DNA of 64,000 nucleotides from contig NZ_JQMQ01000005.1 of the NCBI RefSeq assembly GCF_000744815.1, forward strand, positions 3,356,055 through 3,420,054, in the 5' to 3' direction. Numbering within the stretch: position 1 is the first letter of the stretch; each line of letters begins with the position of its first letter. The stretch is from Phaeacidiphilus oryzae TH49 (GTDB lineage Bacteria > Actinomycetota > Actinomycetes > Streptomycetales > Streptomycetaceae). The notes under the pieces are model-generated. The model did no database searches. It saw nothing but the letters and a program-made list of their open reading frames with translations, and was not told where the DNA came from. Of this stretch, positions 6,951 through 43,170 are shown in pieces. Made by a program: the position numbers and the translations under genes.

Positions 6951-8036
6951 TCAGATCGACAGGCCGTGCCGGGCCAGCCACGCCGACGCGTCCTGCGGCT
7001 CCCCGCCGCCCGTCCGCACCTCGAGATGGAGGCGTGAGGACGCCAGCCCGCCGGTCGCCCCGACCCGCCCCACCGGCTGCCCCGCACTGACCGACCCGGT
7101 CCCGGCGACCGCGGCCAGGTGGCAGTACCAGATCTGCGTCCCGTCCCGGAGCGTCTGCACCACGCGGTACCCGTGCGAACCGGCCCAGGCCGCCGAGGTG
7201 ATCTCCCCGTCGCCGATGGCCCGGACGACCGTCCCCGACTTCGCCGCGATGTCCTTGCCCGGGTTGAGGTGCGACCAGTAGCCGGCGCGCGTGGCGACGG
7301 CCCGCCCCTCGCTCTTCTCGACCGGCGCCACCAGCTCTCCGACCTCGGAGGCCTCCGTCCCGGCCTCGGCCGCAGCCGCAGCCGCCACCGCGGTCCCGGA
7401 TGCGGAGTCGGCCGCCGCCGCGGACGCGGCCGCCCGCGCCCTCGCCTCCTCGGCCGCCCGCAGCCGCGCCTCCTGCGCACCGCGGTTCGCGGCCTCCGCG
7501 TGCCCGCTCAGCCGGGCGGCGAGCGCCAGCCCCGGATCCTGCCGATCCTCCTGCTGGGCAAGGGGGTTGGAGGCGGTGTCCTCCGCCGCGACGCCGGCCC
7601 GGCCGCCACCGGCGGCCGCCGAGGGCTCCGCCGCGTACGCGCTGGAGGCGGTCGCACCGCCCACCGCGGCCATCGCCGCCAGTCCGAGCATGGCCGCCGA
7701 TCCCGGCCGCGAGGCCCACCGCCGCCCCTGCGCGGGCACCTGGGCGCCCGGCGCGGAGTCCGGCGCGAAGCCCGGCCCGGTTCCGATTCCGATGCCGTCG
7801 AGGGCGTTGCGGGCGTCGAGGGCGGGATCGTGGTCCACCACGGGCAGCGCCTGCGTCGGCAGCGCCGCTCCTGCGGGGCCGGCCATCGCGGGGTCCTGGA
7901 CCATCAGCATCGGCCGGGTCGACGACCAGTCGCCCGACCCGTCGCCCGGCTCGTCAAAGCCCGTGGGACCCTCGGGAAGCACCTCGGTTCCGGCTGTCGC
8001 CGAATCGGCACCCCAGGTCACGCGGTACGACGCCAT
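6951..8036 (-). CDS. M23-family cell-wall peptidase, apparently catalytically degenerate
   Basis: A 361-residue protein with a long N-terminal region, a hydrophobic segment near residues 113-135 ending SSAYAAEP (an internal signal or anchor), an Ala-rich helical stretch and a C-terminal M23/LytM domain. The domain keeps HLNPGKD (in place of the usual HxxxD) and YCHL. The canonical HLH motif is changed to SSRLHLEV (R335-L336-H337), so the first catalytic His is Arg. M23 domains lacking this His are often regulators of amidases rather than enzymes. AGGAG precedes the ATG, and the 5' leader carries a c-di-AMP riboswitch, linking the gene to cell-wall remodelling. Confidence 0.85.
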   Translation of the reverse strand: MASYRVTWGADSATAGTEVLPEGPTGFDEPGDGSGDWSSTRPMLMVQDPAMAGPAGAALPTQALPVVDHDPALDARNALDGIGIGTGPGFAPDSAPGAQVPAQGRRWASRPGSAAMLGLAAMAAVGGATASSAYAAEPSAAAGGGRAGVAAEDTASNPLAQQEDRQDPGLALAARLSGHAEAANRGAQEARLRAAEEARARAAASAAAADSASGTAVAAAAAAEAGTEASEVGELVAPVEKSEGRAVATRAGYWSHLNPGKDIAAKSGTVVRAIGDGEITSAAWAGSHGYRVVQTLRDGTQIWYCHLAAVAGTGSVSAGQPVGRVGATGGLASSRLHLEVRTGGGEPQDASAWLARHGLSI

Positions 8037-8053
8037 GACGGCGTACTCCTCTC

Positions 8054-8212
8054 CTTCCGTTCGCCGACCGGGTTAGCTGACGGGTTCGGAGCGGGAAGGT
8101 CTCCTACCGCCTCCACCGTGCCCGCGGGCACGGCTTCCGCGGATTCACCCCAAGGACGTGGGTCCCCGGCTCTTCCGGACGCCGTCGACGGTTCGTCAAC
8201 TGCGCCCGGGCG
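8054..8212 (-). promoter_or_regulatory. ydaO/yuaA-type c-di-AMP riboswitch
   Basis: Read on the minus strand, the leader carries the conserved blocks of this riboswitch in order. These are GTTGACGAACC, then CCGGGGACCCA, then TTGGGGTGAATCC, then GAACCCGTCAGCTAACC followed by CGGTCGGCGAACGGAAGG. The aptamer ends just before the ribosome-binding site of the M23 gene, as is usual in Streptomyces, where it switches off wall-hydrolase genes when c-di-AMP is high. Outer boundaries are approximate. Confidence 0.9.
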
Positions 8213-17520: not shown

Positions 17521-17958
17521 ATGGACCAGATCGTCGTGACAGCAGGGAACGCCCTGGTCACAGCGATGTCCACGGATGCGTGGCGTCAAGCCCAGGCCGC
17601 GGTGAAGCGGATGTGGTCACGTGTACGCCCAGCACAGCAGGCCAAGGTGGTGAGTGGAGAACTGGAGTCCTTGCGGACCGACCTCCTGGACGCCCGCGAT
17701 GCGGGCGACGCTGACGTCGCTCCAGTTCTCCGCGGTGTCTGGAGCCGACGTCTGCAGCGGTTGGTGGACGAGGATGGCCCATCAATCCACGAACTCTTGG
17801 TGGATCTGGTTGAGCAGCTCAACGCGCTGCTGCCTGCGGACGCCCGGAACGGCGTCGTTGCGCAGGTACAGGTTGCCAAGGCCGACGACCACAGCGTCGC
17901 CATCACCGCAGGCCAAGACGCCGTCTACCGTGAATCTGGAAGATCGAGCAAACGATGA
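17521..17958 (+). CDS. Small partner protein of a STAND NTPase cassette
   Basis: A 145-residue, mainly helical protein. Residues 1-30 (DQIVVTAGNALVTAMSTDAW) resemble a family of small proteins often encoded just before NB-ARC/TPR proteins in Streptomyces. The C-terminus (DDHSVAITAGQDAVY) looks like the beta-strand element that recurs in such partners. GGAGGGGG lies 6 nt before the ATG. The stop overlaps the next start (ATGA), indicating coupled translation and probably a shared complex. Base composition is less GC-rich at third positions than nearby genes. The function, perhaps an adaptor or effector-linked module, is inference. Confidence 0.65.
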   Translation: MDQIVVTAGNALVTAMSTDAWRQAQAAVKRMWSRVRPAQQAKVVSGELESLRTDLLDARDAGDADVAPVLRGVWSRRLQRLVDEDGPSIHELLVDLVEQLNALLPADARNGVVAQVQVAKADDHSVAITAGQDAVYRESGRSSKR

Positions 17959-20780
17959 GCGCGGTCCCACAGGACACACGATGCGTACAGTCTCAGTATG
18001 CAACTGCTGAACAGAACAGCACGAACTTGTTGAGCGGCAAGAAGGCCACGTACAAGCCACAGACAAACATCTATCTCTTTGGCCCCATGGGCCCCCCTCA
18101 AGTGCCGGCGGAGCCCTCCGGACGCCGCCGTTTCCAGTCTGCAGACATCCCAAGAGCGGCCATGCACTACCAGCGTCGCCGCGTGGCTATTGAGCTCGCC
18201 GACGCCTTAGCGGCCACGAATGCGGCATGGCAGATCCTCACCGGCACGAGCGGCGTCGGAAAGACGCAGATCGCAGCAGAATACGCCCGCACCCAGTGGG
18301 ACGAGAGGGCTGTGGAGATCTTGATGTGGGTCACTGCTAGGAGGGATCAGGTGATCACCGCCTATGCGAGGCTCGCGGATCAAGTACTGCATACCGGCGG
18401 TGACAGCCACGAGGAGAATGCCCAGAGGTTCCGCGACTGGTTGGGGGCACAGGGCGCAGACTGGCGCTGGCTGATGGTGCTGGACGACCTGGTGGACATG
18501 GATGAGCTAGCCGGCCTCTGGCCCCCCTCGTCGCCGTACGGCAAGGTCATCATCACCACCAAGCGCCGCGATGCCGCTCTGATCGGCCAGGGCGACCTGC
18601 TGCCCGTGGGCCTGTTCGAGGAGGAGCAAGCCGGGAAATATCTGGACCAGATCCTGCTGGACGGGAGTCTGACCGTCCACCAGTGCGAGCACCATGCGAC
18701 TGAAGTGCTCGAACTCGTCAAGGATTTGGGATGCCTGCCCTTGGCACTGTGGCAAGCGGCAGGCTTCCTGATCAACCACCACGGCTTGGACTGCCGTGCC
18801 TACCGCGAGCGTCTCGCCCAACGCCGCATGAGTGACGCAGTCGAGTCCCGGGAGGACCCGCACGGCCCGCTCGCCGGCGTCTGGCACCTGTCCATCGAAC
18901 AGGCTGACATGATCCCTCCGGCTGGGTTGGCCCGCCCAATGCTGGAGCTAATCAGCATGCTCGCTCCCGAAGGCATCCCGACTCCGGTCCTGACCAGTTC
19001 CTCTGCGCGCGTGTATCTCGGCGACAGCCTTGCCCGAAACCGGGCCGAGAACGCACTGGTCCAGGTTGAAGACGCCCTCGATGCCCTGCATTGCCTGCAC
19101 CGCTGGAACCTGATCGATTTCGCTCCTCAGGACACGACTGATCGCAACGTCCGGGTCCACCTGCTGACCCAGCGTGCGACCCGCGAGGAACTCTCCCCTG
19201 AGACAGTGCGGCGCCTGGCCCGCGCCGCAGCTGACGCGTTGTTCGACATCTGGCCAAAGGGCGACCGGGCCACACCGTTGACCAGCGTTCTCCGCGCCAA
19301 CTGCACGGCTCTCCAACTCGTCGCAGAGAAACTTCTGATCGAGCCCGGAGTACACCCCGTGCTCCTGCGCGCGGGAGGAAGTCTGGAGGCGACCGGACGC
19401 GCCGCCGACGCTGTCGAGTACTGGCGGAACCTCCGAGCCGCTGTTGAACGGGATCTGACGCCAGATCATCTGGATGTGCTCTCCGTGCGTAAACGGCTCG
19501 GTGAGGCACTCATGGAGGCCGACCAACTCAAGGAGGCGGAAACCGAGCTCAAGGAGGTGTTCGCCGCACGACTGCGTCTGCTGGGCGCCTTCCATAGGGA
19601 CACTCTCGACGCCCAAGGGGAGATCGCTGTCCTCCGCTGGGCTCAAGGCCGGACCGCCGAGGCTGAGGCTCAGTACCGGGCACTCCTCGAGCTCGAGCGC
19701 GTAGTACTGCCGATGGACGATCCATTGGTTCTGATCACCCGCTACAACCTCGCCAGCCGCGCTGAGGACAATGGCAAGCTGGAGGAGGCGGAGAGCCAAT
19801 TTCAGGAGGTATTCGCGGTCGAAACCGTGGTGAGCGGGCCCGATGCACCCGAGACTTTGGGTACCCGTGGCCGCCTGGCCTTCGTGAGATACCGACTCGG
19901 GCGCCTCGACGAGGAACAGACCATCGACGAGTTGAGAGCGATCCTCACCGCCCAACTGCACGTGCTCAAACGTCCGCACCGGGACGTGATCTCTACCGAG
20001 TCCTACCTCGCGAACGCCTTGCACGGCCGCGGATGGCGGCTCAGCGAAACTGCCCAGAATCTGCTCCACCGCACGGAGACAGGGGGATCCAACATGTCCG
20101 AAAACACGGGCACCGAGCGCGCCAAGACGCTGTTGGAGCAGGCCGTTGCCGCTTTCGAGGAAGCACGCGATCTGATCGACGGCGAAGCCAAGCCCGGGTA
20201 CTACGGCGTCATCCTGCACGACCTGGCCGACTCGCAGCAGGCCATGGGCCGCCTTGAGGATGCTGTCACCAACTTCCGGGAAGCGGTCGAGTACAAGCGC
20301 AAGGCCAACCGCAGCCATGACCTCACTGTGAGCCTGATCGCACTCGGCGGATGCCTCATCGAGTCTGGCGATCAGGAGGAGGCTGGCACCACTCTGCACG
20401 AGGTCGGGGATCGGCTGTCGCTGGAGAATGAACAGCACCCGCAGTCGGCGGCCTCGCGGGCGGTCCTGTACCACGAGTTGGGGCAGAACTGGGAGCAGCT
20501 CGGAGACAAAGGCCGCTCGGAGGCGTACCAGGACGCTTTGGCCGCGTATCGGCACGCCCTCGAACTGGTCGATGCAGACACAGATCCCGGCTCCTACGGT
20601 GCGGTGCTGAACTCGATGGGAGACGTCTACAAGGCCACTGGTGATCTGGACGAGTCGGCCTCGGCGTACGCAAGAGCAGTGGAGTACATGCGCCGCTTGG
20701 GCGAAGCGGAGCAAGCACTACCCTCCTACCTCGTGGACCTCGGGCGAACGCTCCGCCGGCTGGCGGACAAGACCGGCTGA
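17955..20780 (+). CDS. STAND (NB-ARC-like) NTPase with C-terminal TPR repeats
   Basis: A 941-residue signal-transduction ATPase. The N-terminal 60 residues are low-complexity with a strand TNIYLFG. The NTPase has Walker A GTSGVGKT (97-104), Walker B LMVLDDL (173-179), a sensor-like VIITTKR (near 200) and the GLPL-like GCLPLAL. A winged-helix-like region follows, then many tetratricopeptide repeats from about residue 470 to the end. STAND proteins act as ligand-triggered switches in regulation, defence or cell death. No effector domain is fused, so the 145-residue upstream partner may link to one. Codon usage is less GC-biased than neighbours, suggesting acquisition. Confidence 0.85.
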   Translation: MSAVPQDTRCVQSQYATAEQNSTNLLSGKKATYKPQTNIYLFGPMGPPQVPAEPSGRRRFQSADIPRAAMHYQRRRVAIELADALAATNAAWQILTGTSGVGKTQIAAEYARTQWDERAVEILMWVTARRDQVITAYARLADQVLHTGGDSHEENAQRFRDWLGAQGADWRWLMVLDDLVDMDELAGLWPPSSPYGKVIITTKRRDAALIGQGDLLPVGLFEEEQAGKYLDQILLDGSLTVHQCEHHATEVLELVKDLGCLPLALWQAAGFLINHHGLDCRAYRERLAQRRMSDAVESREDPHGPLAGVWHLSIEQADMIPPAGLARPMLELISMLAPEGIPTPVLTSSSARVYLGDSLARNRAENALVQVEDALDALHCLHRWNLIDFAPQDTTDRNVRVHLLTQRATREELSPETVRRLARAAADALFDIWPKGDRATPLTSVLRANCTALQLVAEKLLIEPGVHPVLLRAGGSLEATGRAADAVEYWRNLRAAVERDLTPDHLDVLSVRKRLGEALMEADQLKEAETELKEVFAARLRLLGAFHRDTLDAQGEIAVLRWAQGRTAEAEAQYRALLELERVVLPMDDPLVLITRYNLASRAEDNGKLEEAESQFQEVFAVETVVSGPDAPETLGTRGRLAFVRYRLGRLDEEQTIDELRAILTAQLHVLKRPHRDVISTESYLANALHGRGWRLSETAQNLLHRTETGGSNMSENTGTERAKTLLEQAVAAFEEARDLIDGEAKPGYYGVILHDLADSQQAMGRLEDAVTNFREAVEYKRKANRSHDLTVSLIALGGCLIESGDQEEAGTTLHEVGDRLSLENEQHPQSAASRAVLYHELGQNWEQLGDKGRSEAYQDALAAYRHALELVDADTDPGSYGAVLNSMGDVYKATGDLDESASAYARAVEYMRRLGEAEQALPSYLVDLGRTLRRLADKTG

Positions 20781-39161: not shown

Positions 39162-39989
39162 TCAGGCCATTACAGGGAGTAGCGCGGAGAGATCGCTGCG
39201 CTCCCCACTGGCCGTGAGTTCCGCCACTTCCACCGCGTCTTCCCAGGTCAGACGCCCGGTGGCGAGCCGGACCCAGACCAGCGGAGAGGTCTCCACCACA
39301 TTCGGCGGGGTGCCGCGGGTGTGCCGGGGGCCCTCGACGCACTGGACGACCGCGAACGGGGGGATCCGCAGTTCGACGGAGCCGCCCGGGGCCTGTTCCG
39401 CGAGGGTGTCGGCGAGCAGCCGGACCACGGCGGCCAGGGCCTGCCGGTCGTGCGGGAAGTCCGGCCTCTCGGGGTCGGCGGCCTGGAGGGCGGCGGTGAG
39501 GTCGTCGGCGTGGACCACGGACTCGACGAGGCGGGTGACCAGGAAGTCGGCCAGCCGGAGGGTGCCGAGCCGGGTCGGGACGAGGAGGGACTCCTGTCCG
39601 GCCAGGTCGGGGAGTTGGCCCAGGAGGTGGTCGATCGCGGCGACCGGGTCGTAGGCGCCGCCCGCGGCCCGCTCCCGGACCGTCTCGTCGATGGCCTGGG
39701 CGGCCTCGGCGGCGCCGCGGACCCAGCCCGTCAGGTCGAGCGGGCGGGCGGCGGCGCCGGCCGGCGGGGTGTCCCGGGCGGCGGTGAGGGCGCGCTCCAC
39801 CGCGTCCGCGGCGAAGCCGAGGTGGACGGCGAGCTCGCGGACGGTCCAGTCGCCGAGGCGGGTGGGGAGGAGGAGTTGATCCTCCGTCAGCCCGGCGAGC
39901 TGTTCGCGGATCGCGGTGAACTCGGCGGCGAGCGCCGAGCGCACCGCGGCGGGGTGGTAGGTCCTGGCGCGGCGACTGGTCTGCGGCAT
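39162..39989 (-). CDS. Mycothiol-dependent maleylpyruvate isomerase-like / sterol-carrier fold protein
   Basis: A 275-residue protein with an N-terminal DinB-like four-helix domain (LTEDQLLLPTRLGDWTVREL, with a His in VHLGFAADAVE). Such domains use mycothiol in maleylpyruvate isomerase relatives. The C-terminal part is a sterol-carrier-like alpha/beta domain (VWVRLATGRLTWEDAVEVAE). The natural substrate is unknown; relatives beside purF are conserved in Streptomyces. The start is ATG 39989. The DUF4097 lipoprotein gene lies 20 nt upstream in the same direction. Confidence 0.8.
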   Translation of the reverse strand: MPQTSRRARTYHPAAVRSALAAEFTAIREQLAGLTEDQLLLPTRLGDWTVRELAVHLGFAADAVERALTAARDTPPAGAAARPLDLTGWVRGAAEAAQAIDETVRERAAGGAYDPVAAIDHLLGQLPDLAGQESLLVPTRLGTLRLADFLVTRLVESVVHADDLTAALQAADPERPDFPHDRQALAAVVRLLADTLAEQAPGGSVELRIPPFAVVQCVEGPRHTRGTPPNVVETSPLVWVRLATGRLTWEDAVEVAELTASGERSDLSALLPVMA

Positions 39990-40926: not shown

Positions 40927-41373
40927 TCACCCTCGGGTGACGGTGCGCGTCAACTCCCGGTGCAGGGGCCGCGCGGTGGCCAGGACGAAGCAGCCGAAGA
41001 GGGTGATGACCGGCAGTCCGTAGGGGCGGAGGAGGACGCCCGCCGGGTCGCCGGCGAGGAGCGGCGCGTCGGCCCACCAGTTGGCCGCCACGTCCAGCGC
41101 CATCACCGCGGCCCCGATCGGGGCGGCGGACGGGCGGCGGCGCAGGAGGAGGACGACCACCAGCGGGTCGAGCAGCAGCAGGGCGTGGAAGAGGAGCTGC
41201 GCGGGCAGCGGCGCCGAGCGGTAGGCGTGGAGGCCGCCGGTGCCGACGTCCCACAGGTGGGCGCCGAGGCCCTCGGCGAAGCCGATCACCCAGATCCAGC
41301 GGGCCCAGCGGATCCAGCGGGGCGCGGGGAGCTCGGTCGGAAGGGGTGCGGCGGGCTGAGTCTTGGCTGTCAT
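40927..41373 (-). CDS. Small integral membrane protein, unknown function
   Basis: A 148-residue protein with four predicted membrane helices (about residues 25-45, 55-75, 82-100 and 115-133) and a short basic tail. Acidic and tryptophan residues lie in the loops (GLGAHLWDVGTGGLHAY, then DVAANWWADAP). The start is ATG 41373. I do not recognise the family. Confidence 0.65.
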   Translation of the reverse strand: MTAKTQPAAPLPTELPAPRWIRWARWIWVIGFAEGLGAHLWDVGTGGLHAYRSAPLPAQLLFHALLLLDPLVVVLLLRRRPSAAPIGAAVMALDVAANWWADAPLLAGDPAGVLLRPYGLPVITLFGCFVLATARPLHRELTRTVTRG

Positions 41374-41506: not shown

Positions 41507-41794
41507 ATGGGGCAGCGGACGACAGGGCGGATGGGACGGCGGGCCGAGGTGTTCGGCCTGGCGGACCGACTCCGGGCGCTGGCCGCGGAGTTGGAGGGGC
41601 ACGCCGGGCAGCTCCGGCTGCGGACCGGCGCGATGCGGTGGGAGGGCGAGGCGGCGAACGCGTTCCGGCGGCGGATCCGGCGCCGGGTCGGCGAGGCGCT
41701 GCTCGGCGCGGACGGCCTGAGAGCGGCGGCGGCCGCGCTGGAGCGCTACGCACGCGGCCTCGCGCTCCCGGCCGGCGAGGGGATCGCCCGGTGA
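41507..41794 (+). CDS. WXG100-like small helical protein
   Basis: A 95-residue all-helical protein with the WxG turn (MRWEGEAANAFRR, W45-E-G47) between two Ala/Leu/Glu/Arg-rich helices, as in WXG100/ESAT-6-like substrates of type VII secretion. It is more basic and shorter at the C-terminus than classical EsxA. The ATG at 41507 follows a G-rich stretch. Its stop overlaps the GTG of the next gene (GTGA), so the two proteins are probably made and act together. Confidence 0.65.
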   Translation: MGQRTTGRMGRRAEVFGLADRLRALAAELEGHAGQLRLRTGAMRWEGEAANAFRRRIRRRVGEALLGADGLRAAAAALERYARGLALPAGEGIAR

Positions 41795-43170
41795 GCGCCC
41801 CCGACCTGCGGGTGGACGCCGAAGAACTGGCAGGGCTGCGCGCCGAGTTGGCGACCGCCGCGGAACGGGTCCAGCGGACGCTGAGCGCCGCGCGCCGGCT
41901 GCTCGCGGCCGTCGGCGCGGAACCGGACGCGGCCCCGGAGGCCCGGGCGCTGCTGGCCGGGACGCTGGACGGGCTGCACCTCCTCGGCCCCGACCTGGAG
42001 CGGGACGCTGCCGCCCTGGCGGGGGTGGCGGAGGCGTATCGGCGTACGGAGGAGGAGACGACGGCGGCGCTGCGCGCGCTGGCGGTGCGGCTCGGAGGGC
42101 GCGCGGCCCACGCGGGGCACGCAGGGCTCGCGAGTCGCGCGAGGCGCGCGGAAAGATATCCACAGGTTGTGGACGAACCGTCCGCGTACGGCCCGCTCGC
42201 CCCCTCCGGTCGTCCGGCGTCGGCCGGGGGCCGGCCGCAGGGCCGGGGCGAGGCGCCGAGGCAGCGGTCGCACACCGCGCATCGGATGCCTGCCGCCCGC
42301 GCGGCGCATCTGACCCACCTCGCCTATCTGGCGCACTGCGCCCACCACGCCCACGGCGTTCATCTCGCCCACCGGGCGCACGCCGAGCGGTCGGCCCGGC
42401 ACGGCAGGCGGTGGTCCGGCCCGCACGGCGGGGCGGGCGCCACGGGGCTGGCGCACTGGCACGCGCCGGGCGCCGGAGCCCACGGCGCGGGGCAGCCGCG
42501 CCCGTGCGCGACCGCGCGCCCCACGGCGCCGGCCGGTCCCGGCGGATCCTCCGGACTGCCGCCGCTGCTCGGGCCCTGGCCGCTGGGGCCCTGTCGGCAG
42601 ACCAGCGGCAGCGGATGGCCGGCGGCCGGGCGGCCGCATCAGCCGGGTCGGCCGCACCAGCCCGGGCGCCCTCGCCGCCCGGGCCATCCGCATCGGCCGC
42701 GACCGACCCGTCCGCAGGGCCACGCTCCGGGCCGTCCGCACGGCCATGCCCCCGGCCGGGGATCGCTCGGCTCCCCCGCTCGCGAGACCATCCTCCGCCG
42801 CGCCGCGCGCTGGGCCGCGCACCCGGTGCCGTACAGCATGGCGGCCCGCCACCATGGGTGGCGGGCCGACTGCTCGGGGTTCCTCTCGATGGCCTGGGGT
42901 CTCGACCGCTCATACACCACGGTGACCCTGCCGCGCGTCGCCCATCGCATCCGCAAAGCCGAACTCCGGCCCGGGGACGCGCTGTTGAACAGATCCCCGG
43001 GCCGATACGGCCATGTGGTGCTCTTCGAGCGCTGGGCGGACTCCGCACACACCGCGTACTACGGGTACGAACAGTCCCCTGGCGGGACGAAGCACCGGCG
43101 CATCCCGTACCCGTACTTCCCGGGGCACGGGCGCTTCGTCCCCTACCGCCTCAACCGGCTGGGGCGGTGA
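41791..43170 (+). CDS. Helical-N-terminus / His-rich linker / NlpC-P60 protein
   Basis: A 459-residue three-part protein. Residues 1-105 are a helical hairpin like the partner WXG-type protein. Residues about 140-325 are a low-complexity linker extremely rich in His, Gly, Pro and Arg, including an alternating Ala-His stretch (167-200) and Gly-Arg-Pro-His units. Residues 330-459 are an NlpC/P60-like hydrolase with Cys361 in RADCSGFLSMAW and His408 in YGHVVLFERW, so the core catalytic residues are present. There is no signal peptide. Secretion through a type VII-like route with the upstream partner is a reasonable inference. It converges on purL, 1 nt away, with no terminator. Confidence 0.75.
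   Translation: MSAPDLRVDAEELAGLRAELATAAERVQRTLSAARRLLAAVGAEPDAAPEARALLAGTLDGLHLLGPDLERDAAALAGVAEAYRRTEEETTAALRALAVRLGGRAAHAGHAGLASRARRAERYPQVVDEPSAYGPLAPSGRPASAGGRPQGRGEAPRQRSHTAHRMPAARAAHLTHLAYLAHCAHHAHGVHLAHRAHAERSARHGRRWSGPHGGAGATGLAHWHAPGAGAHGAGQPRPCATARPTAPAGPGGSSGLPPLLGPWPLGPCRQTSGSGWPAAGRPHQPGRPHQPGRPRRPGHPHRPRPTRPQGHAPGRPHGHAPGRGSLGSPARETILRRAARWAAHPVPYSMAARHHGWRADCSGFLSMAWGLDRSYTTVTLPRVAHRIRKAELRPGDALLNRSPGRYGHVVLFERWADSAHTAYYGYEQSPGGTKHRRIPYPYFPGHGRFVPYRLNRLGR

Follow-up and report, generated by a model that had tools for sequence, protein, structure and literature searches.

PE/PPE heterodimers are encoded bicistronically and consist of helical hairpins carrying WxG and YxxxD/E motifs. 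The same layout is described for EsxB/EsxA (CFP-10/ESAT-6) in the sections of PMC3935865 drawn on here, which give the type VII secretion system (T7SS) signal as an exactly spaced YxxxD/E together with WxG on the partner. In the papers we found, neither family has an NlpC/P60 cargo. In Mycobacterium tuberculosis, the WXG100 genes for EsxE and EsxF share an operon with CpnT, a larger effector whose C-terminal part is an enzyme, and are needed for its export, according to PMC7810871; that operon places two WXG100 proteins before the effector and an immunity gene after it. The same paper reports that mutating YxxxE of EsxF left export of the toxin intact, so YxxxD/E by itself is no proof of export. 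A peptidoglycan hydrolase of the Cys/His kind, EssH, is tied to the T7SSb of S. aureus and required for secretion by it (excerpts of PMC13059805). EssH has a CHAP domain, a Sec signal and a place in the ess cluster, and is a helper, not a substrate.

The window (the whole 64,000-nucleotide stretch of DNA analysed) encodes a pair of proteins that combines elements of these systems (Table 1). In contrast to EsxE/EsxF-CpnT, a single WxG partner (P0001) is followed by an enzyme with a hairpin built into it (P0002), and no immunity gene is seen; unlike the hairpins of EsxB/EsxA and PE/PPE, that of P0002 has no WxG of its own. Our preferred reading, which we hold at a probability of about 0.68, is that P0001 and P0002 would form a heterodimer co-exported by a T7SSa machine, and that the NlpC/P60 domain would then cut the cell's own peptidoglycan.

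Table 1. Features of the gene pair, in window positions
Feature	Position	Strand	Remarks
P0001, WxG partner, 95 aa, ATG start	41507-41794	+	ORF; W45-E46-G47 at turn
GTGA stop/start overlap of P0001 and P0002, 4 nt	41791-41794	+	
P0002, hairpin-linker-NlpC/P60 protein, 459 aa, GTG start	41791-43170	+	
N-terminal helical hairpin of P0002, residues 10-100	41818-42090	+	AlphaFold2 helices 10-42 and 49-100
Y83-R-R-T-E87, YxxxD/E export motif (putative), hairpin end	42037-42051	+	
Low-complexity His/Gly/Pro/Arg linker, about residues 123-328	42157-42774	+	
HxxHxxH-type His-rich stretch of linker, residues 160-205	42268-42405	+	
NlpC/P60 domain, residues 329-459	42775-43167	+	C361, H408, E427

The ORF coordinates bear out the original prediction of a 95-aa WxG frame overlapping a 459-aa frame by GTGA, an arrangement through which the two genes are probably translationally coupled; a second ATG at 41531 offers P0001 an alternative start. 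On the 5' side lies a divergent 148-aa ORF (40927-41373, minus strand) that gave no match in a Pfam search, and beyond it an ORF at 39162-39989, called the MPI gene below, that matches SCP_3 and MDMPI_N (Pfam). A single nucleotide separates the end of P0002 (43170) from that of the convergent purL frame (43172); purL, like purF, purM, purQ and purS, is a name we assigned by eye from the sequences. Promoter and terminator scans found nothing. Ab initio gene calling recovered only the 3' end of P0002, and the linker contains short GC-rich repeats, so the gene cannot be found by composition alone. That the linker frame is spurious is unlikely, because homologous hairpin and NlpC domains flank it within one open frame. 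The pair is not a chance arrangement, since its overlap and motifs recur in 16 other genomes.

Both proteins were modelled with AlphaFold2 from shallow alignments of 12 sequences. P0001 is predicted to form the helical hairpin on which the original prediction depended, with helices at residues 4-41 and 48-84, W45 in the turn between them and a mean pLDDT of 87.9. The W-x-G-x-A-A-x-x-F motif is invariant in 12/12 aligned partners, partly by construction since its W.G..A..F portion was a selection criterion. P0001 scores 27.9 bits against the Pfam T7SS_signal model PF21725, narrowly above the cut-off of 27, and passes none of the WXG100 models of Pfam or NCBIfam; PF06013 is matched at E <= 0.01 by three of the twelve partners (best 4.8e-8). 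Foldseek places EsxA (3zbh) and EsxEF (4i0x) first among its matches, at E 0.04; most of its Esx matches have a target TM of about 0.7-0.9, and all have E >= 0.04. Against the sequences of solved structures P0001 gives weak Esx matches, EsxEF 4i0x (E 3.8e-5) ranking below a designed coiled coil.

The model of P0002 (mean pLDDT 62.3) likewise contains the N-terminal hairpin originally proposed for it, and has a folded domain from about residue 329; confidence is very low at residues 126-166 and 205-326. Foldseek matches the hairpin to EsxA 2vrz_B with a target TM of 0.86, yet at E 1.2, and the hairpin matches none of the WXG family models. Y83 is invariant, with D/E at +4, in 12/12 aligned enzymes, five of which are close Catenulispora-type sequences, so that the set amounts to about four lineages rather than twelve independent cases. 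In all twelve, YxxxD/E occurs once upstream of the catalytic domain and at the same aligned position, the motif occupying positions 83-92. Pairs were selected by partner motif and overlap; the shared locus, the hairpin and YxxxD/E were no part of that selection. The hairpin has a dN/dS of 0.06-0.51 in five pairs compared and of 1.06 between the window and its Mangrovactinospora relative (L070).

C361 and H408 are where the original prediction put them, and E427 can be added as a candidate third member of the triad; all three residues are invariant in 12/12 aligned members. P0002 itself scores 13.8 bits against Pfam NLPC_P60, below the cut-off of 23, so the assignment rests on its relatives and its fold: NLPC_P60 is matched by 8/12 members at E <= 0.1 (best 2.6e-4), and the best Foldseek match of the C-terminal domain is Spr (2k1g; E 3.5e-4, target TM 0.69). 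Nothing strong was found among the sequences of solved structures, where the best NlpC match has E 0.16. The domain is thus at most a divergent member, NlpC/P60-like by fold and residues. Its dN/dS is 0.08-0.40 in all six pairs compared, the value of 0.40 being based on a very low dS.

At about 205 to 235 residues, depending on where it is cut, the linker exceeds the roughly 185 first given for it, and it contains 25 His in 234 residues (10.7%). His makes up 15% of the Mangrovactinospora linker and 0-5.1% of the other ten of the twelve aligned linkers; a metal-binding or pH-sensitive linker, as originally proposed, is therefore rejected as a property of the family, high His content being confined to the window and that one relative. 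Only these two share a 20-residue core with His at each third residue. In this comparison, which involves one genome pair and a repeat stretch of uncertain register, six of seven His columns are His in both, and five of the six differ only by a CAC/CAT codon; this hints that the His-rich stretch may be under selection for His in the window/Mangrovactinospora clade. AlphaFold2 places a helix at residues 168-203 with low confidence. Across the linker dN/dS is 0.21-0.65, for aligned codons only.

Matches to P0002 were found in 41 of the 61 genomes searched. Many of the matched NlpC proteins differ at the N-terminus, which is hydrophobic; a distinct subset has an overlapping WxG ORF upstream and a hairpin in place of the signal peptide. 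A second genome scan yielded 68 loci, 63 of which were tested automatically for a W.G..A..F ORF ending NTGA over the enzyme start: 11 have the overlapping pair and 52 do not, including L077, which ends at a contig edge. The 11 comprise one Mangrovactinospora, two Yinghuangia, two Embleya, Streptomyces sp. SID3343 (by eye closest to Embleya in its pair sequences) and five Catenulispora/Catenulisporales. Five further pair genomes (G003, G038, G041, G043 and G046) bring the total to 17 including the window, and the NTGA overlap is present in the 11 relatives and, going by gene coordinates, in 15 pair-bearing genomes of the 61-genome set, ten of them common to both. When conservation of the pair was checked, as had been proposed, it was found to adjoin purL in 11/11 loci having it, and to lie between the MPI gene and purL in all nine that reach far enough. 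A mobile cassette is rejected, since the pair stands beside purL in all 11 loci and the 33 pattern matches in viral contigs include no relatives of it.

Nor is the pair common across the family: in 38 other genomes, the three forward frames of the purL-purF side contain no W.G..A..F ORF; the scan covered this locus only, and in L188, L189, L197, L216 and L224 the purF end was not located. Its absence from the pur locus of most relatives examined indicates that the pair is dispensable, and we suggest that it may be an ancient module that has been lost repeatedly. At the pur locus of three same-genus (g11) genomes (G010, G024 and G033) there are hairpin-like ORFs without WxG or NlpC (L193 4502-4825, L200 5571-5822 and L204 4871-5452; turned, with purL at the right), which are possibly relics of the pair. 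G010, G020 and G033 have, at another locus, a second, more distant pair of a WxG protein and a hairpin-NlpC protein (L156, L155 and L138; 3/20 stretches); its upstream partner carries WHGxAADAF, and YAAxD/E precedes the NlpC domain. This second pair differs from the window pair in that its genes do not overlap, its locus is another one and its NlpC domain is more distant. G035 holds a possible fourth case, with YEQAE but nothing upstream that strictly matches WxG, and in L042 a second-type pair adjoins an ORF that we take to resemble the GTPase Era.

A search of the genome for ESX genes, one of the checks originally proposed, found an ESX locus (L050, G000:C5:2255000-2274999) encoding EccB (258 bits), EccD, EccE, an FtsK/SpoIIIE EccC-like ATPase, a subtilase and two WXG100 proteins, about 1.1 Mb from the pair. 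All 16 pair holders of the 61-genome set have EccB, yet so do 50/61 genomes overall; EccB, being nearly universal in the family, is a necessary condition only and its co-occurrence says little. P0002 carries no signal peptide, as predicted and as judged by hydropathy only: its 15-residue maximum upstream of the domain is 1.08. Sec-type signals in homologues, which the original prediction counted against itself, are found mostly in cousins lacking a partner, 39 of 51 of which have a 15-residue stretch above 1.9 (14 have YxxxD/E anywhere before the domain); among the pair members of the 11 relatives only L076 has a hydrophobic stretch (2.11, at its first residues). The Sec-type proteins of related actinomycetes (for example L026 and L096) have the closest NlpC domain sequences and differ in their hydrophobic N-terminus and in having no WxG partner. 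Several such cousins carry C-terminal repeats that by eye resemble peptidoglycan-binding modules. Four of the secreted-type cousins (L026, L027, L034 and L036) have a Cys-rich start (for example CGCEECAR) before the hydrophobic segment, possibly a small metal site.

The split WxG/YxxxD/E signal, the ESX locus and the orthologous pair at one locus strengthen the core reading of a T7SS-exported pair with a wall-hydrolase domain. The contrary view, that P0002 stays inside the cell or is released by lysis and its hairpin merely pairs with P0001, draws on the absence of a Sec-type segment from P0002; we consider it very unlikely, as the cousins of P0002 mostly look secreted and we know of no intracellular role for an invariant YxxxD/E and WxG. 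An EssH-like part, in which P0002 would open the wall for assembly of the ESX machine or release of its cargo, appears unlikely too. It has the precedents of EssH itself and of a mycobacterial plasmid T7SSa cluster, which two NLP/P60 hydrolases adjoin (PMC13059805, in the excerpts cited); P0002, however, has neither the Sec signal nor the cluster position of EssH and lies far from the ESX locus, and most EccB-bearing relatives are without the pair at the pur locus.

LXG toxins of Bacillota attack competitors, and an N-terminal export module joined to a C-terminal enzyme is a toxin layout; P0002 could accordingly be read as an antibacterial T7SS toxin whose NlpC/P60 domain attacks competitors' walls. 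Tox-NLPC/P60 is indeed listed as a toxin domain by Zhang et al. 2012 (PMC3482391), in the portion cited with T6SS, PVC and TcdB/TcaC export routes and not with T7SS. Against this stands the lack of a linked immunity gene. The pair in the window ends directly before purL. In five of the 11 relatives, 67-131 nt separate the pair from purL, too little for such a gene downstream, and the gap from the MPI match to the partner's estimated start measures about 85-364 nt. The locus is chromosomal and fixed, and NlpC is the C-terminal domain of each pair read: no swapping was seen in 12/12 aligned members, which were collected by NlpC similarity. We therefore regard a toxin as improbable and favour an enzyme acting on the cell's own wall, as no immunity gene is linked to the pair. 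Of the secreted wall hydrolase or toxin pair originally proposed, the T7SS and wall-hydrolase half has gained strength and the toxin half finds no support, with no linked immunity gene and an invariable C-terminal domain.

Under the favoured reading of an exported own-wall hydrolase, P0001 and P0002 would be made together from the overlapping genes, and their hairpins would associate into an Esx-type heterodimer, a four-helix bundle, that the cell's own ESX-type (T7SSa) machine would export. The export signal would be split, the WxG turn coming from P0001 and Y83xxxE87, at the end of helix 2, from P0002; with helix 2 of P0002 beginning at residue 49 and a 38-residue helix 1 in the partner, the length of the bundle would bring Y83xxxE87 close to the WxG turn of P0001. 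Beyond the membrane, the NlpC/P60 domain would be kept apart from the bundle by the flexible linker and would cut peptide stems of the cell's own peptidoglycan with C361 as nucleophile, together with H408 and E427. A bolder proposal, which we think unlikely as a whole, is that ESX systems of monoderm actinomycetes export an own-wall hydrolase by a two-protein signal, and that in the window/Mangrovactinospora clade the HxxHxxH linker helix gates the enzyme through metal or pH.

In the open-licence papers we searched, no NlpC/P60 substrate of an ESX system is described for this group. The EccB count shows that such systems are common among these actinomycetes, and the pair offers a conserved candidate for a substrate, at a fixed locus and with an activity that can be assayed. 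It makes testable what these systems export and, with that, a possible job of type VII secretion, as well as whether WxG and YxxxD/E can form a single signal from different chains, only one of which has the cargo fused to it.

Elsewhere in the window, a 941-aa protein with NB-ARC (39.5 bits) and TPR regions is encoded at 17955-20780 on the plus strand, gene calling finding it coding-like only from 18474. A c-di-AMP riboswitch (8047-8200, minus strand; 71.7 bits) directly precedes a 361-aa ORF (6951-8036, minus strand) with a Peptidase_M23 domain (58.3 bits), probably a second wall enzyme in the window that is controlled differently.
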